DNA of 64,000 nt from a virus (IMGVR_UViG_3300042888_003185:1-64000), one strand, 5' to 3'; positions 6,989-55,543 are shown, numbered from the stretch's first letter. Translations and numbers: made by a program. Notes: generated by a model from the sequence alone, not told the origin.

Positions 6989-6998
6989 GATAAATAAC
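6989..6998 (+). promoter_or_regulatory. upstream late-promoter-like element of the sheath gene
   Basis: GATAAATAAC, one of two tandem copies before the tail sheath gene, 95 nt from its ATG. It matches the recurrent RATAAATAA element of virion genes. This distal copy may be secondary or inactive. Confidence 0.45.
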
Positions 6999-7048
6999 AG
7001 TAGCAACAACTAGACCAAGTTCAAAAGTTATGAATTTGGGACTAATGC

Positions 7049-7062
7049 GATAAATAAATAAC
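7049..7062 (+). promoter_or_regulatory. late-promoter-like element of the tail sheath gene
   Basis: GATAAATAAATAAC lies 35 nt before the sheath ATG. It resembles the T4 late consensus TATAAATA, which is recognised by gp55-loaded polymerase, and a gp55-like gene is present at 27896. No -35 element is expected for this class. Confidence 0.65.
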
Positions 7063-7083
7063 TTAAAATAATACGCAAACTCG

Positions 7084-10000
7084 ATGGCAGAAAAATTAAA
7101 TCTGAACCGATACAAAGCAAGTGGTGTCTATACGGTAGAAATTGACGAAAGCACTAACCTTAGCTTACCTCTTTCAACTGGAAGATTAGTAATCGGCTCT
7201 AGCAAAAAAGGACCTATCAATTCAGTAGTATTAGTGAATGACAATCGTTCACTATCCGCTGTATATGGTGAGACTGACACTAAATTGGAAAAAAACGGAA
7301 GCTTTTTCCACAGAACTATTGATGTTGCTTTACGTCAAGGCCCAGTTTACGCTTTAAACTTGTTACCGATTGCTGACACAGATGTTGCATACTTTACAAC
7401 ATTTAATACTGAGTCAGCATCTAACAATTCAACGTGGTCGGCAAATCTTTATCAAGATAGCATTTCAAGATTCTATAATACTCAAAAATTGTGGTTCGCT
7501 GATGTTGATGCGGTTAACAAATACAAAAATCTTGCGTTAGGTGATACGTTCCCTGCGACTGGAACAATAGACAAGGATGCTAACAAAATCTTAAGTTTAG
7601 TAAATCTTTCTAAGAAAGCAGTTACTGCATGGGCAAGAATTGCTGATACTACTGGTTATGATATTAAAGTTAAAGAATACTATCAACTATTAGGAGACCG
7701 AGTAGAAGTTCCAGAATTTTTACACCCGGACGATTATGTTGCAGATTACTTTGTTGAGCTTGCAGTAGTTGATGGTGATTGGACTGACTATATTCGTTTG
7801 TCGACTGACCCTATTTACAGACAGTACTTTACAGCAAACGGAATCATTCTTTCTAAACTGGACGACTTTTTATCACTAAGAGATGTTGTTGTAGTTAATC
7901 GTACAATTGGAGCAATCATTCCTGACTTTAAGGATTTGGCTGGATCAACTGCATCATTAGATACACTGTTTAATAGAAAATTCAGTAGCTCTAACGTATT
8001 TTGTGCAATTGACTACAAAAAAGTAGACTTAATTGACTTAACTAGCTCTACGTTTAATAGCGGTAGTTCAACTGAACCTATTGCACAACAGCGTATTGAT
8101 TTAGTAGGTCACGGATTTGGTGAGCTTAATACAACTGATGGTAGTAAAACACTATACACTGTAGATAATGGAATAAGCGGAACTGATCCAATTGCTCTAA
8201 TCGACGTGTTAAGTTACAAAAAATCAGCTGGATACGAATACTACTTTGAGTTAGACGGTCTTGCTCACTCAACTACTTTAGCAGCTGGTGAAACATACAC
8301 AATGAATACAGGTGGAGACCTCTATATTACGGCTACTCAAGGAAGTAAATTATATGAAGCATGGGCAAATGGATTTGTTAAAGCTGGAGATACTTTACAC
8401 TATTTAGCTGCACCGTCTAGTACTCCTACTACTCTATATTTAGGAACTGACAACTTAGTTAAAACTCAAACTACTGGTCAAATTAAGTATATTGAATTTA
8501 CAGCATATTCGGATATAACTAGAACTAATCAAGTAGATGCTCAATACATCACAGATGGAGCGCTTGAATTATTACACATTAAATCAACGGTAGTTAACCA
8601 ATTTAATTATGAGTTTGACTTAACTAGTTCAGCTTTCTTTAATACAGTTGGAGCAAATAACTATCAGTATTTTTCTCCAAATCAATTAGTGTTCACATTG
8701 AATACGAATCTTTATGGAAATGTGGCTAAGAAAGAAACTGTTAATTTAGCGTACGACTCAGCACGCAGAGCATTAATTGATGGGTTCTTTGTACCAGGTC
8801 AATACATTAAAGCTAAGATCGCAACTGATGCGAATGGTGATAATGTAATTAGAGATCGAGTTTTAAAAATTAAATCAGTTTACGCTCAACTAATATCAGT
8901 TCCAGTTGGACCTTCTAGTACTCCTACTAAAACTTTAAAGTACACGATTACGGTAGATAATGCATACGATGCTAATGTTCAAGGAATTGATCTTACTGGT
9001 CAAACCGTTAAGGTTTATAAAGGAATTAAAAATTACGTAACTAATTTACGAGGTTTCCACGTTCCAGCAATGGTAGTTGATGAGACTGCTCTTTATCCAA
9101 ACGGTACAGCTTCTAGACAAGATGAAATTCTTGACTATATGTTTGATTCAACTAATATTGCATCAACTCTAGCGGATAATGAGACTCTTGATTATCGTTA
9201 TATTATTGATTCGTATGAAGGTCAAATTTCAAATGCATCAAAACAACAACTTGTTCAACTTGCAGCAAATCACGGAAAAGCGTTAGCTATCTGTAATGCT
9301 CCATCTTTAGCACAATACGAAAAATCAAGTGACCCAAGCTTTATTGATTTTAATACTAACTTAGTATCAGCTGAATACATTTCAACTGGTGGTAATTTAT
9401 CTTCTAACCCAGCATTTACTTTTGGATTTGCAACTGGAGATAAAAATGGTATTGCAATCTCTACTTACGCTGCATACTTTATGCCTAACTTGTTAATTTT
9501 CGAAGGAGGTAAAAACAAATCTATTCCGCCTGCAGCGTTCGTTGCTAACACGTACATGAAGAAATACTCAAGTGGAAATACTTTCTCTATCGTTGCTGGT
9601 AAAAGAGGTATTATTACAGAAGCTGAAGTTACTGGACTTGAATACGATTTAACTGATGACGATCGCGCTTACTTAGAGCCTGTTGGATTTAACTTAATTG
9701 TTAGACGTAGAGGTTTTGGAGTAATGATTTTCTCTAATAACACAGGTTATCAAAGAGTAAGATCAGCACTTAATAACGTTCACGTTAGAGAGGCATTAGT
9801 AACAATCGAAAGAGACGTTGAGAGAATCTTATTGAACTTCTTATTTGAATTCAATGATCCTACTACACGATTAAGAGTTAAAACTCTAGTTAAAAACTAC
9901 TTAACTGCAGTTCAAGACGCTAGAGGTATTGCAACTTTCGATATTGTATTTGATGATTCAAATAACGGTCCTGAAGTTCTTGAAAACAATGCAGGTATCA

Positions 10001-10116
10001 TCGATATTATCGTTGACTTCCCAAGAGGTATTCACAAGTTCATCAATCGTATTACAATCACAAGAGCTGGAGGTCAATTGGCTTCTAACTCAACAGGATT
10101 TACTCCTTCATTCTAA
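7084..10116 (+). CDS. contractile tail sheath protein (T4 gp18-like)
   Basis: A 1010-residue protein. The N-terminus (YKASGVYTVEIDES) and the next segment (GRLVIGSSKKGPINSVV) are typical of contractile tail sheaths. The C-terminal 150 residues (RGFGVMIFSNNTGYQRVRS, VHVREALVTIERDVERILL, TTRLRVKTLVKNYLTAVQD) form the conserved sheath core domain that supplies the inter-subunit handshake strands. It polymerises around the tail tube and contracts at injection. It is much longer than T4 gp18 (659 residues). The extra length lies in the middle (about residues 180-700), which is probably surface-exposed insert domains. It stands alone as a rightward gene between leftward blocks, with its own late-type promoters and a terminator. 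The tube gene is not in the window. Confidence 0.93.
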   Translation: MAEKLNLNRYKASGVYTVEIDESTNLSLPLSTGRLVIGSSKKGPINSVVLVNDNRSLSAVYGETDTKLEKNGSFFHRTIDVALRQGPVYALNLLPIADTDVAYFTTFNTESASNNSTWSANLYQDSISRFYNTQKLWFADVDAVNKYKNLALGDTFPATGTIDKDANKILSLVNLSKKAVTAWARIADTTGYDIKVKEYYQLLGDRVEVPEFLHPDDYVADYFVELAVVDGDWTDYIRLSTDPIYRQYFTANGIILSKLDDFLSLRDVVVVNRTIGAIIPDFKDLAGSTASLDTLFNRKFSSSNVFCAIDYKKVDLIDLTSSTFNSGSSTEPIAQQRIDLVGHGFGELNTTDGSKTLYTVDNGISGTDPIALIDVLSYKKSAGYEYYFELDGLAHSTTLAAGETYTMNTGGDLYITATQGSKLYEAWANGFVKAGDTLHYLAAPSSTPTTLYLGTDNLVKTQTTGQIKYIEFTAYSDITRTNQVDAQYITDGALELLHIKSTVVNQFNYEFDLTSSAFFNTVGANNYQYFSPNQLVFTLNTNLYGNVAKKETVNLAYDSARRALIDGFFVPGQYIKAKIATDANGDNVIRDRVLKIKSVYAQLISVPVGPSSTPTKTLKYTITVDNAYDANVQGIDLTGQTVKVYKGIKNYVTNLRGFHVPAMVVDETALYPNGTASRQDEILDYMFDSTNIASTLADNETLDYRYIIDSYEGQISNASKQQLVQLAANHGKALAICNAPSLAQYEKSSDPSFIDFNTNLVSAEYISTGGNLSSNPAFTFGFATGDKNGIAISTYAAYFMPNLLIFEGGKNKSIPPAAFVANTYMKKYSSGNTFSIVAGKRGIITEAEVTGLEYDLTDDDRAYLEPVGFNLIVRRRGFGVMIFSNNTGYQRVRSALNNVHVREALVTIERDVERILLNFLFEFNDPTTRLRVKTLVKNYLTAVQDARGIATFDIVFDDSNNGPEVLENNAGIIDIIVDFPRGIHKFINRITITRAGGQLASNSTGFTPSF

Positions 10117-10133
10117 GGAATACATTAATAAAA

Positions 10134-10167
10134 TAAAAAAGGACTCTAGTAATAGAGTCCTTTTTTT
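10134..10167. terminator. bidirectional Rho-independent terminator
   Basis: GGACTCT (10141-10147) pairs with AGAGTCC (10154-10160) across a 6-nt loop, with an A-rich run before and seven T after. It can end rightward sheath transcripts and also leftward transcripts from the GroES/HAD operon. Confidence 0.9.
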
Positions 10168-13966: not shown

Positions 13967-14692
13967 TTATTGATATTTGGTTGAAAATATTGCATCTGGG
14001 AATGATTTCTTAGTAAATCGTATCCAGGTTTGCATTACTTCTTCGAATTCTGATTTAGAGATTACGCCGGAAGAAACGAAAGGCCGTAAGTATGAATTGA
14101 ATTCTGAATCTATTGGGACTCTCTTTTTAACAGCAGCTGCGTGCATCCCTGAGACCATTGCTGGTATTTCATCAGGTAAAAGAAAATACTTGTAATTGTC
14201 TTGAGCACCATCTCTAACTTTTTTTGAGGTTTTTACAATGTGACCGACTTTCTTGTTTACTCCTTTTTGTAAAAGGTGCTCCAATTCGTGTCTAAGTGTA
14301 TCAACTATTTTAAAGTTTAAGTCTTGGTATTTAGAAGGTTCAGCGTCAGGGCTAATGTAAATAACTAGGTCTATCTCTGGAGAGTCTGGATCAGATTCAG
14401 CTGGGATATACACGTTTGCATCAACTACAAATCCATTCTCTTCGAAATTAATGGTTTCCCAAGGAAGTCCATTAAAATCAGTAGTTTCAGAAGGATCAAA
14501 GTCGACCACTCTAACTATTTTAACAGTTAAGTCAAATTCAATAGGTTCAGAGTAGGTAAAACTCTCAGTTTTAGGTTTGCCTATTGTTGAGCCGGCTGTT
14601 TTTTTGATAAATGAAAATACATCGCTCGCATAAGAAGATGATAGCGTGTCGTATTTTGATTCGTATATAAATTGACTAAATCTTTTTATCAT
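13967..14692 (-). CDS. predicted zinc metalloprotease, possibly packaged in the head
   Basis: A 241-residue protein with a zincin motif HELEH in LRHELEHLLQKG (about residues 135-146). Further on, LLPDEIPAMVSGMH (about 175) could give the third zinc ligand. The segment before the motif (EIDLVIYISPDAE) looks like the edge strand of a zincin domain. The N-terminus MIKRFSQFIYESK resembles the capsid-targeting propeptides of T4 internal head proteins (hydrophobic-x-E cleavage site). The gene overlaps the Pro/Ala-rich upstream gene by 4 nt (ATGA), and that gene has a late-type promoter, so late expression and packaging are plausible. The substrate is unknown. Confidence 0.65.
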   Translation of the reverse strand: MIKRFSQFIYESKYDTLSSSYASDVFSFIKKTAGSTIGKPKTESFTYSEPIEFDLTVKIVRVVDFDPSETTDFNGLPWETINFEENGFVVDANVYIPAESDPDSPEIDLVIYISPDAEPSKYQDLNFKIVDTLRHELEHLLQKGVNKKVGHIVKTSKKVRDGAQDNYKYFLLPDEIPAMVSGMHAAAVKKRVPIDSEFNSYLRPFVSSGVISKSEFEEVMQTWIRFTKKSFPDAIFSTKYQ

Positions 14693-15258
14693 TTCTTTAA
14701 GAAGATTACATCGAGATCACTAGTAGATGGAATTGACTTATCGTCATAGTTAATATCAATATCTCCACGATCCTTCCCTAGTTTATCAGAAGATAGTGCT
14801 GATTTTAATTTATCGTATATGTCTTCAGGTAAAGCCTTTGTTCCAGTAAGAGCGACTGTAATCTGTTCTTTTTTATCTGTGAAGTTGTTATCGGTGATCC
14901 ATTTATCTAGATCAGCTTGAGCCAATTCATATTCTTTGTATCTCTTAACTCCACCACCGTCTGTGAATTCCGAATGCCATGACTTGTCTTTATCTAAGAA
15001 TACGATTCGAGTAGAACCTGTACCAGAAGAAGCAACTGGAGCATTTGGATCGGGCGGAAGTGCTGCACTAGCAAAAGGATCAGCCATTGGATCAGGAGAT
15101 GATGGTGCTGGAGCATCGGCTGGAGCATCTGCTGGTGGAGCAGGTTCAGCTGGAGTTTCGTCAGCGGGTGGTTCAACCGGTTCCGCTGCAGGCTCTGTTT
15201 CTGGATCGCCTTCTGCTTCCAATAACAGTTTAAATTTACTAAAGTTAAGTATTTCCAT
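14689..15258 (-). CDS. Pro/Ala-rich protein with C-terminal folded domain, probable late protein
   Basis: A 189-residue protein. Residues 1-16 (MEILNFSKFKLLLEAE) look like a T4-type head-targeting propeptide with a possible prohead-protease site after LLEAE. Residues about 17-75 are almost entirely Pro, Ala, Glu and Asp (a flexible linker). Residues about 80-189 form a compact alpha/beta domain (STRIVFLDKDKSWHSEF at its start, STSDLDVIFLKK at the end). The product is not recognised. A perfect T4-like late box TATAAATAAC lies about 20-28 nt upstream of the ATG. It is translationally coupled to the metalloprotease by a 4-nt overlap, suggesting the two act together, perhaps inside the virion. 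Confidence 0.65.
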   Translation of the reverse strand: MEILNFSKFKLLLEAEGDPETEPAAEPVEPPADETPAEPAPPADAPADAPAPSSPDPMADPFASAALPPDPNAPVASSGTGSTRIVFLDKDKSWHSEFTDGGGVKRYKEYELAQADLDKWITDNNFTDKKEQITVALTGTKALPEDIYDKLKSALSSDKLGKDRGDIDINYDDKSIPSTSDLDVIFLKK

Positions 15259-15276: not shown

Positions 15277-15286
15277 GTTATTTATA
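15277..15286 (-). promoter_or_regulatory. T4-like late promoter, leftward
   Basis: TATAAATAAC on the leftward strand, ending about 19 nt before the ATG at 15258. It contains the exact T4 late core TATAAATA and lies just past the nrdA terminator, so it would start the Pro/Ala-rich and metalloprotease pair. Confidence 0.7.
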
Positions 15287-18744: not shown

Positions 18745-18944
18745 TTTTGTAATTTTTTTAATTAAGTGTGTGTAAGTGATTGAATAATCGAATATGGTGT
18801 CGTCTGTCGGCTAATAGTGGTTGCAAAATGCTTGATATGGTTAGCCAGGTGAACAGCGAACAGTAAAATGCGTGGTATTTTAAATTTCGAGTTATCCATC
18901 TGGATTATTTATATCGAAACTATAATACCACGCAACTTATAAAA
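18745..18944 (-). promoter_or_regulatory. structured 200-nt nrdB leader / S1-gene 3' region
   Basis: No gene fits here. A long imperfect inverted repeat begins 11 nt after the S1-gene stop: GCGTGGTATT (18870-18879) pairs with AATACCACGC (18924-18933), with inner TTTCGA/TCGAAA pairing. A second stem is GGCTAA (18809-18814) with TTAGCC (18841-18846). Inside the first stem is TATAAATAA (18905-18913, leftward), like the late-promoter core but 160 nt from the nrdB ATG. The poor T tract makes a simple terminator unlikely; a leader RNA or processing signal is possible. Confidence 0.5.
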
Positions 18945-26242: not shown

Positions 26243-26986
26243 TTACTTTATTATTATACCAGATTTTTCAATTTGGTTTAGGTTAGAAAGCTTTAAAGCT
26301 ATCTGAATTAACGTAATTACGTCTTTTTGGCAGTATTCTTTAATTCTTTCGATATTACCGGCCCAGTAATTCTCATGAACTTGATCACCTTTGATATCGT
26401 CTTTCGGTGAATCGACTCCTAGAATAGTGGCTAATAAGTCGAGTGAAGTGAATCCTTCTTGCCATGCACCAAATGACCAAAGCTCAGAAGTATCAATAAT
26501 TGAAGTTTCCCAAGGTTTTTTATCCCATACTTGAAGAGGTATTGGTGTTTCTACTCCTAGTATAAATGCTCTTTTGCAAAGATATGGAACATCGAATCTT
26601 TTAACGTTATGGCCAGTTAATTTAGCACCAGTTTTCCCAAGACCACCAATTACCTTAAAGGCTTGACGTAAAATGTCTTCTTCATCTTCTCCAGAGTAGG
26701 AAACTATTTGAGCTACGGGTTCGCCGTCCACCCATTTAATTTTACCGAAGGAAATACAGACAACTCTACCGAATTCAGCGTGAAGAGCTGATTTCATTTG
26801 ATAAAGCTCATCGTCTGATTTATCTTTATTGTCTGGATACTTTGCACCCAATTGATTTCTAAGGATTTCCGAACGATTTGCCCAAAGTTCTTGCATTTTC
26901 TCTGAAAGATCTCCAGAATGGCTAACTGTTCCAGCTGTTTCTATATCGAAGAACAGCATTTTTTCTAATTGATGTGGATCAAACAT
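26243..26986 (-). CDS. 3'-5' exonuclease, PolB-exonuclease-like (DnaQ fold)
   Basis: A 247-residue DEDD-family exonuclease. Exo I is MLFFDIETAG (about residues 10-19), Exo II is GHNVKRFDVPYL (about 125-136) and Exo III is EYCQKDVITLIQ (about 214-225). An internal GRVVCISFGKI strand precedes Exo II. It fits the group of predicted 3'-5' exonucleases related to the exonuclease domain of family B polymerases, which is common in Bacteroidetes. It could proofread or repair DNA. The polymerase fragment at 5039-6421 has its own intact exonuclease, so this is a second such activity. It is the first leftward gene from the iteron region. Confidence 0.82.
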   Translation of the reverse strand: MFDPHQLEKMLFFDIETAGTVSHSGDLSEKMQELWANRSEILRNQLGAKYPDNKDKSDDELYQMKSALHAEFGRVVCISFGKIKWVDGEPVAQIVSYSGEDEEDILRQAFKVIGGLGKTGAKLTGHNVKRFDVPYLCKRAFILGVETPIPLQVWDKKPWETSIIDTSELWSFGAWQEGFTSLDLLATILGVDSPKDDIKGDQVHENYWAGNIERIKEYCQKDVITLIQIALKLSNLNQIEKSGIIIK

Positions 26987-28332: not shown

Positions 28333-28341
28333 AATAAATAA
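28333..28341 (+). promoter_or_regulatory. late-promoter-like element
   Basis: AATAAATAA lies 32 nt before the ATG of the 1089-residue tail gene, with the same flank (CTTAATAAATAAA) as the element at 31654. Confidence 0.65.
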
Positions 28342-31653: not shown

Positions 31654-31662
31654 AATAAATAA
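31654..31662 (+). promoter_or_regulatory. late-promoter-like element
   Basis: AATAAATAA lies 32 nt before the ATG of the 352-residue gene at 31686, the same distance as the element at 28333. Confidence 0.65.
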
Positions 31663-44500: not shown

Positions 44501-45391
44501 TATGAAGTATTGACAAAACCTGTAGCTGGATTCAAATATGAATTTTCAATAAATGATAATATTTTACATGGAGCAAATGTTTGCCTAAATCCATACGTCG
44601 ATAATTTCTTTATTATAAAGGACTATGAATTTGTGAAATACTCAAAATCTTCAATTCTTGATCTTGAAAACAGTCAAAAATACTCATCCGTTTATCCATA
44701 TATCGGAGAGACTCCGATTAGTCGAACTGACTTTAATATGTTATCTTCGAGTTGGGATTACGGATATCATTTCGAATACTCTAATAAAACAGATTACGTA
44801 AAGGTTCCAGGAACACGTCGAGTTACTGAAGATTATTCATTTATTTCCAAGTTATTAAATGTTCCTATGCAATTCATAATGGAAGACTTTACTTCAATTG
44901 AATTAAACAATACTGACTTTTTAGCATCGTCCGCTACTCAAGCAAATATTGTGTATTCTCAATTTGCAACTGAGATTAAATTCAAATTAAATATACCAGA
45001 TTTAATAACTAAGCACTTATCAAATAACGGACTTCGTGACCAATTTTTAAAGTTCTTTAAATATTCAAACGGTTCTCAAATTACAACAGACCCAGTATTC
45101 CTAGATCAGCTTACATTTGAAGAATACTTATCTCAATATTGCTCAACTAACTTAACAAAATTATATCAAGTAGAAGCATTTGAATTTTATGAATTAGATG
45201 ATAGAACGATCAATAATAACTTAGTTTCATTCGAATCGGTTGAGTATGATTTACTCGGAGACTTAGGTTACGACTTAATTCGATCAGTCCGAATAAATAA
45301 TACCAAATCTAATGTAATTGAAGGATCGATTTTGATAAAACCGAATACTGGAGTTAAATTAGTTCCAAAAATAAAAATTAAGTTCATTTAA
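38558..45391 (+). CDS. giant tail/baseplate protein with inserted seven-repeat beta-propeller
   Basis: A 2277-residue protein starting at GTG. Residues about 1-335 are a mixed domain (TYTQLAERNVSFQLLRTNPK at the start). Residues about 337-687 contain seven repeats of a delta-60-type/DUF5122 motif, each with a core such as YIGGTFTSYNG, YVAGGFTSYN or YIGGAFTSYKG, predicted to form a seven-bladed beta-propeller. The remaining 1590 residues are large beta-rich domains with many aromatic residues and no recognised family. The TAA stop overlaps the next ATG by one base (TAATG). Size and position suggest a structural component at the baseplate periphery or a side fibre, and the propeller may bind glycans or proteins. 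Its order before the collagen-like fibre gene suits a fibre-network protein. Confidence 0.65.
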   Translation: MANPNLTYTQLAERNVSFQLLRTNPKLTTNLKLTVDSVGDLWFNSIDANEKLANQKYKRFSINENSSHEVNLYKFYDNGKTPSTIAYEVGSTIGKTATAKDLKDQYDFDLYTSGAKYLSSRQYSEKFTYLAPLYVDQIIPTKFVIFKVPGPSNYTAGQGKDLDGIVKPEDFATDLFKNATVVKVFDMGPTSKIGKYLENIKKNPMFTKNPLYVNYKADGFSIYRGPSIKTGTYVELPEQLSTVLTRALPLLKVEQFITQGFERNNIVHPSILNLEFLFNDDTSNPYEFNRYFGFYCNDIDLETFDIDLTAMFNSKITASDSIDISTALASSEIGGGTVKTITVDPATDKMYIGGTFTSYNGYPANGIIRLNSTGEIDFSFHYGSGFSPAKVESIELDKFGKVYVGGEMLSYNGTPISNFIKLNTDGSIESTDFSFDSTVRTIHITPSQDIYVGGTFTEYTNSGDVLPSVGLVKINLDGVADSSFDVGSTGFSGGAGLVKKLIVNSSNKVIVIGDFTSYKGTTANGIVQLTNTATIDSTFVYGTGFNNVSTVNDIVLDEVGEVYVAGGFTSYNSNTVNRLIKLTEAGAIDLAFNYQTGANGTISKISLDLNGNFYIGGAFTSYKGVPARGIARIFKNGELDFSFNTSTGLSPQSVTDIVVHDESHIYVAGGFTKFQEVTTGGLLNLANVGIDNDQLIPINYKQTDDISFLLTNPTGVKLRGMNLTQDLSDLTNNRTSKDTLFFPYLKTKDGDIHLINSEDWNQSGSIVDFKIDNTSFDLGLTFGPKELVTQEIAEISTKDSKSTISIEIISKPNHLDKIRIYHPSGSVIDSLDLNGKYDELVFTRNYLPITTPYTLAYSAGISTIYVNGDRDLDQIAQSISDISDILNNTSISGVTLNTTSFLQTNRFGDAYGELKVKVLPVSSSYNFVKLNNSVTTDIVYADGGFLNKSHAIIDIGNISKLTQLLDTLVIKTDQNWSSISRLCNASDLITNGLSSDAKLSAISNFNTKATIQLTDDETVNVKYGKIEIRKLFRPTVGVLSIFETMDFNFSTYSSDYSRNLLIDLYKDFYIPAGAKVLDFTKYTYKAIGTGAISINGTIYDSTDIAASGERNLIWQNTDLISYFENIDGDVILIYGNKLPLTTLDPGDSAFSNRLDIPYFDETEDAFDYIGPFSLKADHTSASTSLATYPYREKFLSGSLSSEYHANLENFISDFATDGRVIPYIAKWGIADSSDSRDNPYRLNSDLLFGKDNFGPSHRETSPTPEKMTHEWFYIESDFGYSDDIKSIRNNYSYFNENLNINSLISDSNYFEQYFTYVPVINSIQIARPQYRYSILNKNQFNKQYETLFKGAMFRFYELAQNGSAVSDTLRFEDYKFSVILKPVKEDPTINRQPVKYRVIENTNSKSITVVIELVLGHKELLPETILSSNWSAGTNDQVTQANLFTGSVMSSPVNYQIDQEITAASLLEYNNLISGSSAISASPGDTIQVVYGNKSTILATLGSPVYEAVSNSLISTGDKLGTRIYAKVDQSTPIILTSGVYSGVRIQGVFEDAWVNQVSGIVGTIIADDDPIGATVTHFALSSTSATPAQSVTGYFQFNDGGGINQTEILDELLSTNTRFSLIYSDISSIVYNEAVYEVDPSTLSSSNGVYDFDVTYISGSLGSASYDEPILFRADWSVPTQNSTFSVYHKVSYMDSLFGDYRISFNSNSVSNLTHSFLYYAKDKKYNTKATAYSTIKLSRGVNLSASGLNLNPSTLVIESIRTSLLPGLESYDALADSEINRISNDFAPLYIIKAGEKSVLLKLAAGVSVTTAALGNSALTIDGVDGALQDVVNITNISGQPYTIIPLPTGLGDLVQYVYSANPVPNNTTSYWIEDINQFQIFGGVKYFEKVFENLSFAKFLNLTEKSQGVISWESYTDGILTPYKTMAIEIVQADQINKSTIVKLDQVEVNSGQINGVAGFAYSEVPSQEYSVNRYSSEYEVLTKPVAGFKYEFSINDNILHGANVCLNPYVDNFFIIKDYEFVKYSKSSILDLENSQKYSSVYPYIGETPISRTDFNMLSSSWDYGYHFEYSNKTDYVKVPGTRRVTEDYSFISKLLNVPMQFIMEDFTSIELNNTDFLASSATQANIVYSQFATEIKFKLNIPDLITKHLSNNGLRDQFLKFFKYSNGSQITTDPVFLDQLTFEEYLSQYCSTNLTKLYQVEAFEFYELDDRTINNNLVSFESVEYDLLGDLGYDLIRSVRINNTKSNVIEGSILIKPNTGVKLVPKIKIKFI
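39566..40620 (+). repeat. seven tandem delta-60-like beta-propeller repeats (coding)
   Basis: Seven copies of about 45-55 residues within the 2277-residue protein. They are marked by IGGTFTSY, VGGEMLSY, VGGTFTEY, IGDFTSY, AGGFTSY, IGGAFTSY and AGGFTKF, each followed by a strand ending in I-x-L or similar. The DNA copies are well diverged, so this is an old protein repeat rather than a recent duplication. Confidence 0.75.
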
Positions 45392-47745
45392 TGGCAGTCA
45401 TTATAAATCTAAGGGAAGTATCCGCACTTGATAGTCAATCTGACTTATCTAGTAAATTAAATTTCAACTTTAACCAGCTAATCGCATTAGGGATTGGCCA
45501 AACTGGTCCTACTGGACCTGCTGGTTTAACTGGAGCAGCCGGTCCAATTGGGCCAATTGGACTTACTGGACCGCAGGGCTCAGTAACTTATGGGTTATCT
45601 GCTGCGATTGCACCAGTAACTGCACCGACTGGCGGATCCTATCCGTCTGCTATGGTTTTGGGCGATATTTTAATAACAGCCGACACTATATTAAAGAAAG
45701 TATCCGGTGGAAACGGTTGGTTAGAATTAGCGAATTTTAATACTCTTGTACAAACTGCCCTAAGTTCAAATATTTCGCCATTTGTAAGATTAACTCCTAC
45801 CTCTAGAATACTGAAAGCTAGAGTATCGTCTGGGTCTGATTTAACAAATAGTGCAACATCAACTGATCCAAGTTATGCAACTCCTGGAGCAGGAGTTAAC
45901 TATCAAACTGTTCTTTATAACTTTAATGAGTTAAACTCTAAATCTGTAATATTCGATGGATCAAATATCGTAATTAGTGCAAACTCGTCAACCGCTAAGA
46001 CCTTTGCTCCAGCAACCGCGGTTAATACGTCAACTGAAGAAATTACATTTACGTCAAATCACGGATTAGTGGATGGCCAATTTGTTACATACTCAGCGGA
46101 AGGTGGAACTGCAATAGGCGGACTTTCTAATTTCAATGGATATTTTGTTCTTAAGATTAGCGATACAGTTATTCAATTATGTGAAACTGCCGCTGATGTT
46201 ACTAACACAAATCCAATAAATTTAACTTCTACTGGTTCAGGAACCTCTCCGCATAAATTAATAACGTACCCTTCTTCTACTGAGAAGATGTTTCCAGCTA
46301 CTTCAAACCTATCATTATACTCTTATTTTAATGGAACCGCAACTGAGGCTAAGGAATTTGCAACAACAAGTAAAGGATACCGACATCAATTAGAATTAGG
46401 ATCAATTGATGCCCTTTCCACTTCATATACTTCAGGCTCAGCTGGCGAATCTTACGTAATTAGTCCAAGTTTTGAAAATCTACGAATGCGTAAATATCGA
46501 TTATCGTACGGAACTTCTTTTGGTAATGAAGCTAATCCTGGAACCTATTTTCTAAGAGCGGAATACGACTTATCTTCGAGCGGAATAACTGCTTCGCCTG
46601 AGTCATTTGCTCCAAGAAGAAGTAGTGAGCAAATTTGGAAAATTAACCGAGCTGAGGCTCTTCAAGCTGACGGTCGTTCAATTGAAATGAAGTTTACGAA
46701 CTATCGAATCTTAACGGACACTGAGTCAGCCAGTACAATTTCAATCGATGGATTATTTTTTAAGAGAAACGCAAGTTTTGGTGGCGGATCAGCTGCTGCC
46801 TATTGGGGAGCAGGTTTTAACTCAGCCAACAATAATATTACCTTTAAAATAGGGAGTACCAGTTCAGTATTTGAGTTTAGAAACCCCATTCAAGTCATTA
46901 GCTCAACCGGCGCAGTTACTACATACGGAGGTACTGGAATAACTGGCGTTCCTACTAGCGGCAACTCATTTACGATTGCGGCGCCGGTTACAGACTTAGC
47001 AATATTAACAGTAGACGCCACTAAAGAGCTACGTCTTAATAATGCAATTAAGATCAAAGGTGATCGTCTTAATCAAGGAATCCCTTTTCCAGCTACACAA
47101 ATTCCATCAGCGGATGCAAATACGCTAGATGATTACGAGGAGGGTACCGTTACTAATGCTCTATTCTTAGGACGATATGAAACTCTTAGTGGTGGTAAAC
47201 TCATACTTCCAACCAATTATCATTCATACGCGACGGCTAACTCATTTTCAGGCTTTCAGCTGTCTCAGTCATTCACATACACTAAAATAGGTAGACGCGT
47301 TCATTTTAATTCAATTTATACACTAGACCTCAACTCTTGGCCAGCTGACGACATGACATCAGGTTCAGGCTACTATACATACACTGGGTTAGGGCTTTCA
47401 TTACCATTTTCAGCAAGTGCACACGGTCATCTAAATGCACAAGTGACCGTTACTGATATAACTACTTTACCGGATCCTCAGCCTGACTATACTGGAATCT
47501 CGTATATACAAACATACTCTAATTATTTAGGAAGCCTTATTTCTAATGGTGATGCCGCGAGAGGATGGATTTATCTGCAGTCACAACACGCTTTTCCAGC
47601 AAATGAAGGCTCAACTGTTACTAATCGACTAAGCCAATTTTCGCTATTTAACCGAGCTGCTCGCGCTCCGCTAAACACCTCAAACGGAGAATATGGAGGT
47701 AACGTAACTATTCGAATCTCTGGATCGTATGACGCGACCGCTTAA
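45391..47745 (+). CDS. fibre protein with short collagen-like stretch
   Basis: A 784-residue protein. After a 35-residue N-terminal anchor (VSALDSQSDLSSKLNFNFN), a classical collagen-like stretch of about ten Gly-X-Y triplets containing Pro follows (GQTGPTGPAGLTGAAGP, about residues 37-68). The rest is beta-rich, Ser/Thr/Asn-rich and Gly-rich. A long C-terminal domain (about 580-784) may be the receptor-binding or trimerisation domain. Collagen-like segments are common in phage fibres as trimeric rods. It begins within the stop of the giant gene (1-base overlap) and ends tail to tail with a leftward gene, overlapping its stop by 4 nt. The role as a tail fibre or spike is inference. Confidence 0.65.
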   Translation: MAVIINLREVSALDSQSDLSSKLNFNFNQLIALGIGQTGPTGPAGLTGAAGPIGPIGLTGPQGSVTYGLSAAIAPVTAPTGGSYPSAMVLGDILITADTILKKVSGGNGWLELANFNTLVQTALSSNISPFVRLTPTSRILKARVSSGSDLTNSATSTDPSYATPGAGVNYQTVLYNFNELNSKSVIFDGSNIVISANSSTAKTFAPATAVNTSTEEITFTSNHGLVDGQFVTYSAEGGTAIGGLSNFNGYFVLKISDTVIQLCETAADVTNTNPINLTSTGSGTSPHKLITYPSSTEKMFPATSNLSLYSYFNGTATEAKEFATTSKGYRHQLELGSIDALSTSYTSGSAGESYVISPSFENLRMRKYRLSYGTSFGNEANPGTYFLRAEYDLSSSGITASPESFAPRRSSEQIWKINRAEALQADGRSIEMKFTNYRILTDTESASTISIDGLFFKRNASFGGGSAAAYWGAGFNSANNNITFKIGSTSSVFEFRNPIQVISSTGAVTTYGGTGITGVPTSGNSFTIAAPVTDLAILTVDATKELRLNNAIKIKGDRLNQGIPFPATQIPSADANTLDDYEEGTVTNALFLGRYETLSGGKLILPTNYHSYATANSFSGFQLSQSFTYTKIGRRVHFNSIYTLDLNSWPADDMTSGSGYYTYTGLGLSLPFSASAHGHLNAQVTVTDITTLPDPQPDYTGISYIQTYSNYLGSLISNGDAARGWIYLQSQHAFPANEGSTVTNRLSQFSLFNRAARAPLNTSNGEYGGNVTIRISGSYDATA

Positions 47746-48533
47746 ACCTTAAGCTTAAACGGAATAGCTTTCTTTTTATCAAGCATACGTTCATAGTCCA
47801 GTAATACATTAGCATCAAATCCATGGCTAAGGTTCATTATCTTATTTAGTAAAATAATGTCCTTAGTCAGACAAATTCCATCCGATATTACAACTTGGTC
47901 CGTGCCAGATACAACAATAACGTTTTTATCCGGTTGAAAATCAGTGAGAGTCGGCATCTCAACCAGAAGCCTATCCTTGAACTCATTATTCTTTAATCCC
48001 GGAAGATGCAATACAGCCTTTCGGCTAATTGAGTAGCCTAACGGTCTATTGCTTTTAGTATTTAGTTTAAAAATCTCGTACCGGTCAAGCTTTTCTGATT
48101 TACATACAATATAGATCACAGCCTGTTTATGTAGAGCAGTATTAGTCAAATGAAAGTTTAGGTGCTCCAATACAGGAATCTGTTTTCTTAAGTAAACCGT
48201 CATTACCTCAGATAGAATAGCTGACGCCATTCGAACGATTTCCTTACCATTAGAGTCATTCGATTGGGCCAATTGAGATACTATAACCATTAAGTTTTGA
48301 TGTGCCCTAACTGCGTTTAAATGTGAATCGTAGACCTTCTTATCAGCTATAATAGTATTGATATTTAGGTAGTGAAATGCAATTTCGTAAAAGTTAGAGA
48401 AATCAGTCTCAAGCTGATTGAGATACTTTTGTTTTGCGTCCATTAGAATGTACGTGTAGTATTCCAGATCGACAAAATTCGCTTGGCATAGCCACATAGG
48501 GTCTAGGACAAGCTTCGGGTTCAAAGGCTTCAT
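47742..48533 (-). CDS. hypothetical leftward protein inside the late block
   Basis: A 263-residue protein, not recognised. It is globular, with an aromatic, helical N-terminus (LEYYTYILMDAKQKYLNQLE, FSNFYEIAFHYLNINTI). A middle alpha/beta part follows (QAVIYIVCKSEKLDRYEIF, VIVVSGTDQVVISDGI), and the C-terminus is basic. It is the only leftward gene among the rightward structural genes. It faces the next gene across 79 nt that hold late-type boxes on both strands, so it is probably expressed late in its own transcript. No signal peptide or membrane segment is visible. Confidence 0.7.
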   Translation of the reverse strand: MKPLNPKLVLDPMWLCQANFVDLEYYTYILMDAKQKYLNQLETDFSNFYEIAFHYLNINTIIADKKVYDSHLNAVRAHQNLMVIVSQLAQSNDSNGKEIVRMASAILSEVMTVYLRKQIPVLEHLNFHLTNTALHKQAVIYIVCKSEKLDRYEIFKLNTKSNRPLGYSISRKAVLHLPGLKNNEFKDRLLVEMPTLTDFQPDKNVIVVSGTDQVVISDGICLTKDIILLNKIMNLSHGFDANVLLDYERMLDKKKAIPFKLKV

Positions 48534-48553: not shown

Positions 48554-48562
48554 TTATTTATT
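48554..48562 (-). promoter_or_regulatory. late-promoter-like element, leftward
   Basis: AATAAATAA on the leftward strand, about 20-29 nt before the ATG at 48533. It forms a divergent pair with the rightward box at 48588. Confidence 0.5.
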
Positions 48563-48587: not shown

Positions 48588-48597
48588 GATAAATAAC
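48588..48597 (+). promoter_or_regulatory. late-promoter-like element
   Basis: GATAAATAAC lies 25 nt before the ATG of the 690-residue tail gene (CTGCGATAAATAAC). Confidence 0.65.
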
Positions 48598-48612: not shown

Positions 48613-50685
48613 ATGCAAGTAGTCACCTACAAGATAATTCCGGAACCTGATAAGAACTCGGTTGCGTACAGTAAAAATTATAGAATATTTTCTACTGGCG
48701 AACCTTTACCTGGGGCTGTGAAAATCGTGGGATTCGATGAATCGCTTGAGCTTGGAACAGCGGTCTCTACTAATATTAATCGTAAATTTAGATATTCGTT
48801 AAACCGTGGAAACTGGTCACTTTGGTATTCCTTTAGCCCAGACGATCTTTCTGAAATTAACGTGCTAGACTTTGCAAATAGCGACGTCTTCTTTGAGGTC
48901 AAGTACGAATACGATAACGGAATTAATTACGATGCGCTTACCTCTCCATTAATCGTTAACAATATTAAATTTAGAGTTCAAAGCACTCACATTGATGTAA
49001 CTCTATACACACCGACCGTTTACTGTTCAGCTGAACGCTGTCCAGCTCTAATCGCTGAGAGAGAAGCTTCATTTAAACCTTATGAAGTTGGAAGTGCGAT
49101 CGGAATCTCTAAGGAATTGAGCCTACAAACAAATAAATTGTTTGGCCATGAAGTAGTTTACTTTAAAACTGAGCCGGATAGAGATGGCGGAGATTTTATA
49201 TTTAAAGAGTGGACTCTATTTAAAACACTGGATCGAAAATGTGTTAAAGTAGTAGTTCCAAATAATGTATTCCCAGATAATAAACCTAACTTTACTGAGT
49301 TTGGTGTAGATTTTGAAATACCATTTGAGATTCATATCGATAATATCTACTTTCAGTCTATTTTTGGACCAAACACACAACCTCGTAAAAGAGATTACAT
49401 GTACTTTCCATTAACCAATCGAATGTACGAAATTCAAGGATCTTATCTGTTTAGAGGATTCATGATGGAGCCTCTTTACTGGAAAATTCAATTAACTAAA
49501 TTTCATCCAAATATCGATATGCTAATGAAAGAGCCTGATCGAATATTCCTTGACAATATTATTATGACAAGCGATGAACTATTCGGTGTACAAGCTGAAG
49601 TTCAGACAAATGATGCTCTGGATAAACAACAGTTTAAAACGATTTCGCACAAATTCGATGAGACTCGTAGATCACTACACCCAGATCTTGATAATAAAAT
49701 TTTGGATAAAACTTTTAACTATGCTCCATTAATCGAGTACTATTACGATATGAGTGCAGTTAAACCAGTCTTGCAAAATTACATAACTACTACCTCAAAC
49801 ACAAAGGAAGATCAGTACCTAAAAACTACTGCAAAACCTTACGAAATTTGGGCATACGAAAGCAGTTCAATTTACAGTGCATGGCTGAATAACCAATTAA
49901 ATACTGGAGACAGTTACCTAGATTCTACTGGTAAATTAGTCTCAGTTAAAATGAATGGGCCCAAAGATTCTTTCCTTGATCACTTAGGCAAATATGTGGT
50001 AGTTGAAGGTTATCGAGACCTGAGCCTAACCTCTAGATTTCAAGATTTAACCCAAAGTTTTGTTGGCAAATTTCAATTCAAGCAATCCGAGCATGCAGTT
50101 GTCTATAAAGCAGTTGCCTCAACTGAAGTTACTCCAAATATGACATTTAGCGCGCTAGTTAAATTCAATGCAGGATCACAGACCATCCGAATATTTGATG
50201 GATATGATAACATCAATAGTAAAGGCTTAGTCATCTCCTGTGGAATAACTGACGTTTCTGGATTACCTAGCGTAACGATTCACGTAAGAATTAATAGCAG
50301 TCAATACTCATTTACTGTTGGCGAATTGTTATACGATGAATGGTATTCAATAATCGTTCCAGTATCCGCTCAATACGGCCAGCTTGAAGTTAACGTATAT
50401 GAATTTAATCAGGACCCAGCGAATATTAAAAACTACAATCGACTTGACTTAGTATTTAACGGCTCAGCTAAACCTGGAACATTTAGCTTTGTAACTACTC
50501 AAAATTGGGCTCTACCTTCTGCTAATTATTCAATTGCAAATGTTAGACTATTTAATACAATGGTTCAGTCAGAGGATCACGAATTTATAGTGAGTCAGCT
50601 ATTCGTTAGAGACGAATCTACTCTAGCTATAATTGATAATGCTCGACCTCGACTAAATGTACCATTCATTGCAATAAACAAATAA
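48613..50685 (+). CDS. tail/baseplate structural protein (690 residues)
   Basis: No family recognised with confidence. The N-terminal part (about residues 1-200) is beta-rich with aromatic residues (YSLNRGNWSLWYSFSPDDL), a pattern seen in baseplate and fibre-joint proteins. The middle has a helical region with acidic patches. The C-terminal 190 residues resemble a LamG/concanavalin-type sandwich (MTFSALVKFNAGSQTIRIFD, EWYSIIVPVSAQYGQLEVNV), which often binds carbohydrate. It is preceded by a late-type box and followed 5 nt later by the amidoligase gene, so the two are co-transcribed. A structural role is inferred from the block, and carbohydrate binding is a possibility only. Confidence 0.55.
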   Translation: MQVVTYKIIPEPDKNSVAYSKNYRIFSTGEPLPGAVKIVGFDESLELGTAVSTNINRKFRYSLNRGNWSLWYSFSPDDLSEINVLDFANSDVFFEVKYEYDNGINYDALTSPLIVNNIKFRVQSTHIDVTLYTPTVYCSAERCPALIAEREASFKPYEVGSAIGISKELSLQTNKLFGHEVVYFKTEPDRDGGDFIFKEWTLFKTLDRKCVKVVVPNNVFPDNKPNFTEFGVDFEIPFEIHIDNIYFQSIFGPNTQPRKRDYMYFPLTNRMYEIQGSYLFRGFMMEPLYWKIQLTKFHPNIDMLMKEPDRIFLDNIIMTSDELFGVQAEVQTNDALDKQQFKTISHKFDETRRSLHPDLDNKILDKTFNYAPLIEYYYDMSAVKPVLQNYITTTSNTKEDQYLKTTAKPYEIWAYESSSIYSAWLNNQLNTGDSYLDSTGKLVSVKMNGPKDSFLDHLGKYVVVEGYRDLSLTSRFQDLTQSFVGKFQFKQSEHAVVYKAVASTEVTPNMTFSALVKFNAGSQTIRIFDGYDNINSKGLVISCGITDVSGLPSVTIHVRINSSQYSFTVGELLYDEWYSIIVPVSAQYGQLEVNVYEFNQDPANIKNYNRLDLVFNGSAKPGTFSFVTTQNWALPSANYSIANVRLFNTMVQSEDHEFIVSQLFVRDESTLAIIDNARPRLNVPFIAINK

Positions 50686-52061: not shown

Positions 52062-52071
52062 AATAAATAAC
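52062..52071 (+). promoter_or_regulatory. late-promoter-like element
   Basis: AATAAATAAC lies 36 nt before the ATG of the Thr-rich fibre gene. Confidence 0.65.
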
Positions 52072-52097: not shown

Positions 52098-54524
52098 ATG
52101 TCAATTCAATTAAAAATTTCAAGTGTAAAATCAATTAACGGTGCTAGCTTAACTAGCGTTGTTGATTTGGCTAATTTTAATTTTAGCACAATAAAGTCAG
52201 CAATAACTGAGTTTCTATCAGCCGTTAACTTCGATCAAACTGGTGGAGTTTCAGTTGACATTGAAGGAATTTCAGCAAACACAATCATCGTTAGGCAAGG
52301 TCTAACTGTATACGGTGCACAGCAACAAAATGGGTCGTATCCTGAAGTAATAAAACTCTACCCAACTGGCGCAATCACCGGTAAAAATGCGGTAATGGAA
52401 GATGTAGTTGAAGGTAAAAGGCTTCGACTTAAAGTATACGGAGCAATTCCGCCAACTGGAGTTCCAGGAGAAGTAATCTACATTACTCAACAGGGCGGCC
52501 GAATTGAAGGATTTTATGGATATTTAGTATCAACTGGCTGGACGCTACTCAGCGGAGGCGGTGCAGGTTCTTGTAGAGCGGCTGTAACCAGATCGGTAAC
52601 GCCAAATGTAATTACTGGAGACTCTGCTTTAGTTTCACCAGGATTACTTCCGATGCCCGCGCCGATCACGACTAGTGAGTACTTATTGTTCATTAACGGC
52701 CAACAAATAATCATAGGAGATGGCACCAAAGTAGCGCCAGCGTACTTTAGTAAAGACAATGGGACTACTGCAAGTAATTACGGGGCAGTTGATTCAACTG
52801 ATGAACTTTATTGGAACACTTCTGTTGCTGGATATGGACTAGACGGTGGCGATTTTGTAACTCTAATTTACACATCAGCTGATCCTTATTGCGGAGCAGC
52901 TGGCGTTTTATGTACGACCGAAATTGTGCAAGCTGGTCAAAGTTCAACGAATCACCCACAGGTTGGAGTATCGGTTGTGTTAGATACAAACGCTACAGAA
53001 TCTGCGCCAATCACAGTATGTTCTGTACCAGCGCCGACTCTATCTCCATCTGGTATTTTACCGGCAGGTTATTACTTAAATAATGCAGCAATGGCATTTG
53101 ATATTTCAACTCCATTAACTATTGGAGCTCTTCTTGAATTTACTCTACCTCAAGCAATGACTGAGCCGGTATTTGACACAGTTCGAATATTCCATAATGT
53201 AAATGGAGTCTATGTTGATGAAACTGTCTTAACTGGACCGTATGCTCCTGACTATGCAACTAGAAAAATATGGGCGCAAGTAACCTCATTTAGTCCTTTT
53301 TACGCTATTCCTTTTCAGGCTACTCCAACTACAACAACTACAACGGTTTCGCCTACCTTGACTACTACGATCGCACCAACAAGTACAACAACGACTTGTG
53401 CTCCAGGCTCAATTAATTACTCAGTTGCTGAAAACTTAAATGCAACAGTCATATCATTTATAGGAACTCCAACTGGTCCGTATTCAGTAGTCTTTGCGTC
53501 AGCAGGTGGACCTACCTACAATCTGACTGAATTGCATGGAGTTAACATAAGTCTTTCATGGATATTTAACAGAACTGATTCTGAGTACTTATCTTCAAAT
53601 ATTAATACCGTATATGGTACGTACACGTTTACCAATGCGGCAGGCTGCCAATACGTAGTTAACGTTGAGTTTGGTGCAGTTACCACAACAACTACCACCG
53701 CTGCTCCAACCACTACGACGACAATTGCGCCGACTACTACGACGATTGCACCGACTACCACTACAACAATCGCTCCGACTACTACTACGACAATTGAGCC
53801 GACTACTACTACGACAATTGAGCCGACTACCACTACAACAATCGCTCCGACTACTACAACGACGATTGCTCCGACTACTACAACGACGACGATTGATCCA
53901 TGTAGCGAATTCACAGTTACTCCATCCCAGACTGGCGAAAGTCAATATACTTTTCAAGTTACTGGGCCTGGAGGATTACTTTATACGATCCAGCAATTTG
54001 CCGATATTATTTACACAGGTACAACTAGAATTCCGGCTGAAAATTTAGCGCTAATCGATGGACCTCTCAAAGTAACAATTAACTCGACATGTACATTCTG
54101 TTATGAATTTGATGCAGGTGCTCAAACTTTAACTGTGATAGATTGCGGACTGTATAGCGGAATTACTACTACGACTACAACGCTAGCGGCAACGACCACA
54201 ACCACTACGCTTGCTCCATCAACTACCACTACTACTACAATTGGATGCCCATCTGTATCAATTGAGTATTATCAAGACCGTGAGGCTAAGACTATATCGT
54301 TTGTTTTATCAACAACTGAGTATTCAGTAATTCAAATATTTGATAATATAAACGCGCCTATTTCAGAAGGTATGTATACTGTAACAATCGACGGATCTGA
54401 TACTATAATCGAAGGTATATTTACAATCGACCCAATTGGTAAGTGGAAAATCATATTAGATGAGTGTCTGTATGAAGTTAACGTAACTGAATATCTAACT
54501 ACAACTACTACCATTAGAGGATAA
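52098..54524 (+). CDS. modular fibre/adhesin protein with Thr-rich linkers
   Basis: An 808-residue protein. The N-terminal 130 residues are an anchoring domain (LKISSVKSINGASLTSVVDL), with a strand-rich segment (GEVIYITQQGGRIEGFYGYL). A middle domain runs to about residue 405. Three Thr-rich linkers follow (about 411-435, 530-597, 690-716), built of Thr runs with Ile/Ala/Pro or Glu/Pro punctuation. They separate Cys-containing domains of roughly 90-95 residues. The final Thr run ends in TTTTTIRG. Such linkers are flexible spacers and typical O-glycosylation targets. The next gene is a glycosyltransferase-like protein 30 nt away. Probably a side fibre or decoration protein. Confidence 0.65.
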   Translation: MSIQLKISSVKSINGASLTSVVDLANFNFSTIKSAITEFLSAVNFDQTGGVSVDIEGISANTIIVRQGLTVYGAQQQNGSYPEVIKLYPTGAITGKNAVMEDVVEGKRLRLKVYGAIPPTGVPGEVIYITQQGGRIEGFYGYLVSTGWTLLSGGGAGSCRAAVTRSVTPNVITGDSALVSPGLLPMPAPITTSEYLLFINGQQIIIGDGTKVAPAYFSKDNGTTASNYGAVDSTDELYWNTSVAGYGLDGGDFVTLIYTSADPYCGAAGVLCTTEIVQAGQSSTNHPQVGVSVVLDTNATESAPITVCSVPAPTLSPSGILPAGYYLNNAAMAFDISTPLTIGALLEFTLPQAMTEPVFDTVRIFHNVNGVYVDETVLTGPYAPDYATRKIWAQVTSFSPFYAIPFQATPTTTTTTVSPTLTTTIAPTSTTTTCAPGSINYSVAENLNATVISFIGTPTGPYSVVFASAGGPTYNLTELHGVNISLSWIFNRTDSEYLSSNINTVYGTYTFTNAAGCQYVVNVEFGAVTTTTTTAAPTTTTTIAPTTTTIAPTTTTTIAPTTTTTIEPTTTTTIEPTTTTTIAPTTTTTIAPTTTTTTIDPCSEFTVTPSQTGESQYTFQVTGPGGLLYTIQQFADIIYTGTTRIPAENLALIDGPLKVTINSTCTFCYEFDAGAQTLTVIDCGLYSGITTTTTTLAATTTTTTLAPSTTTTTTIGCPSVSIEYYQDREAKTISFVLSTTEYSVIQIFDNINAPISEGMYTVTIDGSDTIIEGIFTIDPIGKWKIILDECLYEVNVTEYLTTTTTIRG
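53682..53893 (+). repeat. 24-nt coding repeats for Thr-rich linker
   Basis: About eight units of roughly 24 nt encode TTTTTIAP, with TTTTTIEP variants. Third-base choice varies (ACT, ACC, ACA, ACG), so the repeat is kept at protein level. Related shorter runs lie at about 53326-53400 and 54164-54240. Confidence 0.85.
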
Positions 54525-54554
54525 ACCTTAAGCCAATTAGTAGTATAAATTAGT

Positions 54555-55511
54555 ATGCTAACTAAGAAGACTATATTTATGTCCGCTCAGCCGGACCACC
54601 CGTATTTTCATTGGCAAGTTGAGGTAGTAATTCATAATTTTATGAAGAGCGGAATAAACCCTAACTGGATAGATATTCTATTTGCCTATGATAATGAACC
54701 TTCGCCTGAAGGTAGAGCTCTTGCTTCCAAATATCCAATGGTAAGATTCTTTTTCTATAAAAAGAGAATAACTGAAAATTATGGATACATTCCGATCCTA
54801 AGACCTGATATTCTAGAACAGCACTTTAGAGCTCATCCGGAACTTCGTGGAGAAACTGTCTTTTACCATGATTCTGATATTATTTTTAGAGAACTTCCTA
54901 ACTTTGATGCCCTACATGGAGATCTTTATTGGTACGTAAGCGACACAATTTCATACATTGGTGCGAAGTACATTAAGAGCAAATCAGAAGATATTTTCAC
55001 AGATCTATGCAGTCTTTCAGGAATTCCACCGGAATTAGTGGAAGCAAATGAGGCTGGCTCAGGCGGTGCTCAATACTTAATGAAAGGTGTAACTGCCGAT
55101 TTCTGGAAAGAAGTAGCCGAGGACACATTGACTATTTACAAGTACATGTGTGATAGAGAGCATCAAGACCGCTCTAATTTATCTACAGAAGAAGCGGCTC
55201 AATTTAATCCAATTCAAAAGTGGTGTGCTGATATGTGGTCAGTTCTTTGGGGAGCATGGAAAATGGGAGCCCAGACGATTGTTACTCCTGAACTTGATTT
55301 TAGTTGGGGAACTTCTGATATCCATGCATACAATAAGTGCCCAATTATGCACAATGCTGGAGTAACTGATTCAACCAAAGATACGTTATTTTATAAAGCA
55401 GATTTTCGATCAAGTAGTCCATTTGATACTGATCTATCGTACGTTGATCCGGAAAGCGCATCTGGGAAATACGTTGCTGCTATTTTATATGCCAAGGAGA
55501 AACGGAAATAG
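54555..55511 (+). CDS. glycosyltransferase-like protein (GT-A type), possible O-glycosyltransferase
   Basis: A 318-residue protein. After an N-terminal strand with DHPYFHWQVEVVIHN, the central segment TVFYHDSDIIFRELPNF (about residues 98-114) has a DxD-type motif (DSD) that binds the metal and sugar nucleotide in GT-A enzymes. Later come GGAQYLMKG (about 174), WCADMWSVLWGAWKMGA (about 224) and IMHNAGVT (about 268). The layout recalls O-glycosyltransferases acting on hydroxyproline or serine of proteins. This is a memory-based resemblance, so the exact family is uncertain. It lies directly after a fibre with Thr-rich linkers and shortly before the Gly-Thr-Ser fibre, which makes a virion glycosylation role attractive. 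Confidence 0.6.
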   Translation: MLTKKTIFMSAQPDHPYFHWQVEVVIHNFMKSGINPNWIDILFAYDNEPSPEGRALASKYPMVRFFFYKKRITENYGYIPILRPDILEQHFRAHPELRGETVFYHDSDIIFRELPNFDALHGDLYWYVSDTISYIGAKYIKSKSEDIFTDLCSLSGIPPELVEANEAGSGGAQYLMKGVTADFWKEVAEDTLTIYKYMCDREHQDRSNLSTEEAAQFNPIQKWCADMWSVLWGAWKMGAQTIVTPELDFSWGTSDIHAYNKCPIMHNAGVTDSTKDTLFYKADFRSSSPFDTDLSYVDPESASGKYVAAILYAKEKRK

Positions 55512-55533
55512 ATTACTTGGATCTACTAGTGAT

Positions 55534-55543
55534 GATAAATAAC
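55534..55543 (+). promoter_or_regulatory. late-promoter-like element
   Basis: GATAAATAAC lies 39 nt before the ATG of the 627-residue fibre gene. Confidence 0.65.

Follow-up and report, generated by a model that had tools for sequence, protein, structure and literature searches.

The boxes found before the virion genes of this phage are best explained as T4-type late promoters that are read by the phage's own gp55-type sigma factor and are placed in either a leadered or a leaderless position; we give this reading a probability of about 0.85. The boxes would form the −13 to −6 recognition element, in which the sigma factor, on the host RNA polymerase core, would read [A/G/T]ATAAATA as single-stranded non-template DNA. 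No −35 element would be needed, and transcription would begin on a purine 13 nt from the box start. The first placement, about 11–26 nt before the start codon, would give leadered messages (sheath, baseplate wedge, scaffold and endolysin), and the second, in which the start codon begins at +1, would give leaderless messages (gp15 and gp4 homologs), with leaders of about 4–10 nt being avoided. That the sigma factor reads the boxes, and does so late in infection, we infer from features that are present in the sequence itself (the box, the class of genes behind it, its conservation, the homology of the sigma factor, its base-reading residues and the purine at +1); the leaderless output is predicted from promoter geometry. 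The earlier note had likened RATAAATAA boxes before virion genes to T4 late promoters, which is supported by the position of the boxes, the gene class, ortholog conservation, the lack of a −35 element, the +1 purine and the gp55 homolog. The late-promoter family itself is of a known kind; the new element is its bimodal and, as predicted, often leaderless placement, of which no description was found in the literature searched on T4-type phages.

Predicted late boxes in the viral record

The stretch of DNA that was analysed, referred to as the window, comprises bases 1–64000 of a 96,711-base viral record (G000). A sigma-based scan identified IMG/VR contigs of 270–271 kb that encode an identical sigma factor, which makes the record part of a T4-type phage genome of roughly 270 kb. 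The comparison set consisted of G000 and its relatives G001 (271 kb), G003 (253 kb), G004 (253 kb), G005 (217 kb), G006, G007 and G008. Start codons are predicted throughout, and the predicted leader is the position of the start codon relative to +1, taken as box start plus 13. The predicted late boxes and associated genes of the window are as follows.

6989–6997, +, distal late box GATAAATAA of the sheath gene; predicted leader 82 nt
7049–7061, +, proximal pair of overlapping late boxes GATAAATAAATAA of the sheath gene 7084–10116
7084–10116, +, tail sheath gene (phrog_34521 tail sheath, E 3e-86), predicted to be driven by the tandem boxes
15279–15286, −, late box TATAAATA (also TATAAATAAC) of gene 14689–15258; predicted leader 15 nt
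18906–18913, −, TATAAATA box with +1 1 nt before a 45-aa ORF (18762–18899, −)
28333–28341, +, late box AATAAATAA of gene 28365–31634; predicted leader 19 nt
31654–31662, +, late box AATAAATAA of gene 31686–32744 and large structural genes downstream; predicted leader 19 nt
45292–45300, +, AATAAATAA inside gene 38558–45391, with +1 86 nt before gene 45391
48554–48562, −, late box AATAAATAA of the leftward gene 47742–48533; predicted leader 16 nt
48588–48596, +, late box GATAAATAA of gene 48613–50685; predicted leader 12 nt
52062–52070, +, late box AATAAATAA of gene 52098–54524; predicted leader 23 nt
55534–55542, +, late box GATAAATAA of gene 55573–57456; predicted leader 26 nt

All boxes named in the earlier note were found at their positions, with distances from box start to start codon of 25–39 nt on the plus strand and 28–29 nt on the minus strand, within the ranges given there; the one listed at 7049 is present and proved to be two overlapping boxes, at 7049 and 7053. 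The box at 18906–18913, whose function is uncertain, was absent from that note, and the copy at 45292–45300 is probably a chance occurrence or a weak promoter. A hairpin and a T-run immediately precede the box at 15279–15286. Gene 48613–50685 gave a weak match to the T4 neck protein (PF11649, E 0.012, below the cut-off). Gene 55573–57456 is followed on the same strand by a collagen-like tail gene of 3733 aa (57680–68881), which has a GC content of about 0.46 within a 0.35-GC region and contains long open antisense frames. The 32.7 kb beyond the window contain six further boxes, either intergenic or at the start of a gene (80088−, 83158−, 83618−, 83661+, 90480+ and 94323+) and an intragenic copy at 92188. 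The motif is better written as [A/G, sometimes T]ATAAATA(A).

Enrichment, conservation and predicted start point

The raw count of RATAAATAA is a weak signal, with 10 occurrences in the window versus 4.9 expected, a number reached by 2 of 100 shuffles. It is the placement that exceeds chance, as had been claimed: in the 96.7-kb record, 12 boxes lie 10–50 nt before starts versus 0.7 in shuffled upstream DNA, and the most boxes in any of 300 upstream shuffles was 5. The corresponding numbers for G001, G003 and G005 are 42, 38 and 27, versus about 2 after shuffling. Genome-wide motif discovery, which the earlier note had proposed as a check, returned ATAAATAA as the top upstream 8-mer in G000, G001, G003 and G005; in the unbiased k-mer ranking of G000 it was found upstream of 12 genes versus 0.27 expected. 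The positive controls gave the expected words, TATAAATA for T4 and ATAAATAA for cyanophage Syn19. A reversed motif was invalid as a control, since AATAAATAA reads the same backwards, and was replaced by other A/T 9-mers and CATAAATA/CTATAAT.

Boxes are conserved between orthologs. When a gene of G001 is boxed, so is its ortholog in 31/36 cases in G003, 19/27 in G005 and 14/17 in G008; box presence is tied between orthologs with odds ratios of 38–174 and few boxes are gained, at a mean protein identity of about 49–61%. Both the distal and the proximal boxes of the sheath gene are kept in 8/8 genomes, while the intervening DNA has diverged; the distal box lies about 60 nt upstream in six genomes and about 53 nt in two.

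In the same genomes, the proportion of boxes near starts depends on the first base: 93/137 for G, 140/198 for A, 30/58 for T and 2/54 for C. The T4 box spans −13 to −6, and position −13 is variable in accepted T4-like members as well (PMC1524935), so boxes without T at −13 are still compatible with T4-type membership. When 90 leadered families were aligned on the box, no column from −45 to −14 exceeded 0.18 bits, i.e. no −35 element was visible, and the base at the position of T4's +1 was A in 87% and G in 12% of families. This 99% purine, versus a background of about 58%, argues for the assigned start position as well as for a promoter, and is weaker evidence than a mapped 5′ end, given the A-rich surrounding DNA.

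These data bear on two explanations that do not involve transcription. The boxes could be AT-rich words that arose by chance, or A-rich signals for translation of the Kozak-like kind seen in Bacteroidota, and A-rich leaders are indeed general before starts in these genomes. However, shuffled upstream DNA yields 0.7–2.5 boxes against 12–42 real ones, the boxes stand mainly at the heads of transcription units, and their two-mode spacing (see below), ortholog conservation and exclusion of C at −13 would not be expected; this explanation is strongly disfavoured and we regard it as highly improbable. The other explanation, that TAAATAA is a double stop-codon cassette closing the upstream gene, draws on the 16–30% of boxed sites in which the preceding gene ends on a TAA of the box. 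Most boxes are not stops, though, and 31–42% of boxed genes have an upstream neighbor on the opposite strand, which rules the cassette out as a general explanation and leaves it a practically negligible probability.

Genes with and without boxes

The boxed genes comprise the sheath, two baseplate-wedge genes (one gp6-like), scaffold, head closure (gp4), tail sheath stabiliser (gp15) and endolysin. The major capsid gene is directly downstream of the boxed scaffold gene, and the terminase belongs to the unit that begins with the boxed gp6-like gene. As previously noted for the helicase, polymerase and gp32-like genes, none of the replication set (DnaB-like helicase, both polymerase pieces and single-strand binding protein) is preceded by a box, nor are the genes for the UvsX-like recombinase, GroEL/ES, NrdA/B, thymidylate synthase and primase. 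Boxes are thus found on virion and lysis genes and not, as equal frequency before early genes would have required, on replication genes.

N-termini that resemble the T4 capsid-targeting sequence (PMC3012670) occur in 33/110 boxed families versus 27/518 others (odds ratio 7.8, p 2.6e-12). One such gene lies in the window:

14689–15258, −, boxed gene whose N-terminus MEILNFSKFKLLLEAEG is similar in sequence to the T4 capsid-targeting sequence

This gene is a candidate for an internal head protein, and its N-terminus would account for the presence of a box among replication genes. Many boxed genes of G001 likewise begin with sequences of the type MK.LK.F..F[IL]NE. Among them, G001 101769–102914 gave a weak match to nucleotidyltransferase domains, and its product may be an enzyme that is packaged into the head.

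A gp55-type sigma factor without recognisable clamp machinery

27896–28315, +, gp55-family late sigma factor, 139 aa (phrog_234, E 1e-16)

The gp55-like sigma factor reported in the earlier note is a true gp55 homolog. In addition to the phrog_234 match, a search of the PDB with a profile built from 32 sequences gave T4 gp55 as the sole match (E 7e-23). The protein was modelled with AlphaFold2 (mean pLDDT 81), and the top Foldseek match of the model was gp55 (7d7c_F) with a probability of 1.00, at modest E-values (best 2e-3); the sequence profile is the stronger evidence for identity. In the cryo-EM structure of T4 gp55, Y97 stacks on A−12, N13 and H95 contact A−9, and T99 binds A−8 (PMC7892883). 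N13, F86, Y97 and T99 are invariant in the sigma alignment, and H95 is replaced by F. No base pocket is described for −13 in the T4 structure, which fits the variability of this position.

The sigma factor is devoid of T4's linker and clamp-binding end, and terminates in a clade-conserved tail, ...ESEI(F/Y)TI. No profile match to the gp33 co-activator, a protein that diverges fast, was obtained in the clade. As the Pfam model for gp45 (PF02916) was insensitive and missed the Syn19 protein, PHROG models and profile-profile alignment were used, and neither gp45 nor gp62 was found in the clade by these means. The gp45 clamp model phrog_223 matched only in T4 and Syn19, and the loader model phrog_168 gave a clear match in T4, in Syn19 and in every other gp55 phage tested, but none in this clade. 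An apparent gp44 match, the best AAA match, was ClpA/B-like when followed up in G001. Since homologs of gp33, gp45 and gp44 were undetected, the T4 activation mechanism may not apply in the clade.

Two spacing classes and a second putative promoter type

Predicted leaders fall into two classes. By ortholog family, 21 are 0–1 nt, 6 are 2–4 nt, 4 are 5–10 nt and 73 are 11–22 nt long, and the peak at 0–1 nt has a Poisson probability of 2e-19 against the local background. About a fifth of the boxes in the relatives have a predicted leader of 0–1 nt. The same peak at 0 and gap at 5–10 nt appear when all ATGs are counted without gene calls. Gene calling could not create the leader-0 peak, because the box places no in-frame stop there; leader-1 cases are partly favored by the in-frame TAA of the box, which may add a few. 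The gp4-like gene has a leader of 0 in 6/6 genomes and a coding sequence conserved from the first codon; the gp15-like gene (79337–80083, −, in G000) has a leader of 0–1 nt in six genomes, in which its protein is also conserved from the first codon. The spacing class is kept between orthologs in 8/9 cases (G001–G003). An excess of T at −13 is seen at leader 0 (10/30 versus 15/233), and genes of the predicted leaderless class are shorter (median 193 versus 268 aa, p 8e-4).

None of the predicted leaderless boxes can be placed with certainty inside the 64-kb window, and the earlier note described neither the spacing classes nor the second promoter type, because most examples are outside it. In a sister group (sigma factor 47–55% identical), almost no short-spaced boxes occur in the 20 kb around the sigma gene, a region that is nearly empty of them in this clade too. 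In marine T4-like contigs (sigma factor 30–43% identical), a gp3-like tail-completion gene carries TATAAATA with a predicted leader of exactly 0 at 13 loci, with L227, L236, L238, L239, L241, L247, L249 and L255 among them; several of the 13 are near-duplicates.

G001, G003 and G005 carry another promoter-like motif, TAGTATAATA, mostly in front of other genes.

G001, 118 kb and 157 kb, examples of TAGTATAATA
G000, 26252, −, TAGTATAATA before GroEL

With standard sigma70 geometry, TAGTATAATA also peaks at leader 0 (13/60 sites); GTATAAT has 15 ortholog families at leader 0, and this sigma70-like promoter has 19 families at a predicted leader of 0–1 nt. CTATAAT, ATATAAT and TTATAAT give no leader-0 peak in the same genomes. 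The strongest indirect evidence for the predicted leaderless messages is that the −10 elements of both promoter types, which are unrelated and differ in start-point geometry, direct the predicted +1 to the start codon.

The late promoters could be genuine and the close class still not be leaderless, if the true start codon is further in or an upstream promoter supplies a leader. The start codons are predicted, and about a third of the closely spaced genes begin <20 nt after a same-strand gene and could be carried on readthrough mRNA. We nevertheless consider this unlikely, as conservation of the gp15- and gp4-like proteins extends to the very first codon in six genomes, the spacing gap at 5–10 nt is sharp, and the second promoter type peaks at leader 0 with a geometry of its own. 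It is very unlikely that the boxes are instead −10 elements of the host sigma70 type, active early or throughout infection, rather than targets of the phage sigma factor. While NATAAATA does resemble a degenerate −10 element, the same genomes carry the distinct sigma70-like TAGTATAATA before other genes, C is almost excluded at −13, no −35 signal is present, the boxed genes are virion or lysis genes, and the gp55-bearing phages T4 and Syn19 share the same core.

Likely host and related phages

The host of the phage is likely a member of the Bacteroidota. This is indicated by Flavobacterium phage MaF61 being the closest isolate by sheath gene, by A-rich DNA before starts with no evident Shine-Dalgarno motif, and by an early-type motif, TTATATTTAC, that is similar to the Bacteroidota TAnnTTTG element. 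TTATATTTAC is found before runs of small ORFs (G005 genes 0–24 at one contig end, and a few in G001), often with TTTTTTACTGTCAA ∼10–20 nt upstream. The B-family DNA polymerase is apparently split over separate genes (5039–6421 and 26243–26986 in the window, 36862–38487 in G001); the single polymerase of MaF61 matches two of them, and an exonuclease-like gene is separate. Most leaders in F. johnsoniae are >10 nt (PMC6847099), so a Bacteroidota host alone would not favor leaderless messages.

Implications

T4 late transcription is a textbook system that has been dissected mainly in T4. The clade offers a gp55 system with a shortened sigma factor, no recognisable clamp or co-activator, and a conserved, sharp split into leadered and predicted leaderless genes. 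A bolder reading, which we find possible but doubtful, is that this jumbo T4-type lineage uses leaderless messages in two promoter classes and sets protein amounts through the leader, with no gp33/gp45 activator; low-copy joining and internal proteins would then be leaderless and abundant structural proteins leadered. The proposed role of leaderless placement in keeping the amounts of connectors and internal proteins low is hypothetical, and the difference in gene length is its only quantitative hint. If the two predicted classes are real, the clade would be a natural test bed for the tuning of virion protein amounts by leaderless initiation and for gp55 working without clamp coupling. Box start plus 13 would also be a simple rule by which transcription starts could be predicted and start codons corrected in many uncultured phages.

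Comparison with known systems

The late promoters of T4 (TATAAATA, −13 to −6) have the same ATAAATA core, a gp55-family sigma factor, no −35 element and boxes before virion genes, and residues N13, F86, Y97 and T99 are conserved in the clade sigma factor. In T4, however, −13 is T, whereas in the clade A or G dominates and T is found sometimes. T4 gp55 has a linker and clamp-binding end and works with gp33 and gp45, whereas the clade sigma factor has neither element, and gp33 and gp45 were undetected. No T4 box has a leader of <7 nt, compared with 21 families at 0–1 nt in the clade.

Cyanophage late promoters (NATAAATA; S-PM2, Syn9 and Syn19) have a degenerate −13 and the same core as the clade, and ATAAATAA is the top 8-mer in Syn19 too. 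Unlike the clade, they tolerate C at −13 (CATAAATA is enriched in Syn19), they keep gp33 and gp45 (PMC2984593), and in Syn19 there is no leader-0 box and no called gene with a leader of <7 nt. MaF61 (GATAAATA), Lak-C1 (AATAAATAT), LR756500 (RATATATAA) and PAU (TATACATA) each have one dominant TATA-like upstream word and match the gp55 family (only weakly, with E 0.002, in MaF61), but the word is lineage-specific and there is no leader-0 peak like that of the clade. MaF61 is a member of a different clade, and its short-spaced boxes number a few at most. This suggests that the late box drifts with the sigma factor across gp55-bearing lineages. The start codon at +1 is shared with leaderless bacterial genes such as those of Mycobacterium (PMC4633059); unlike these, the genes described here belong to a phage and would be transcribed from two kinds of promoter, one late and phage-type, the other sigma70-like.
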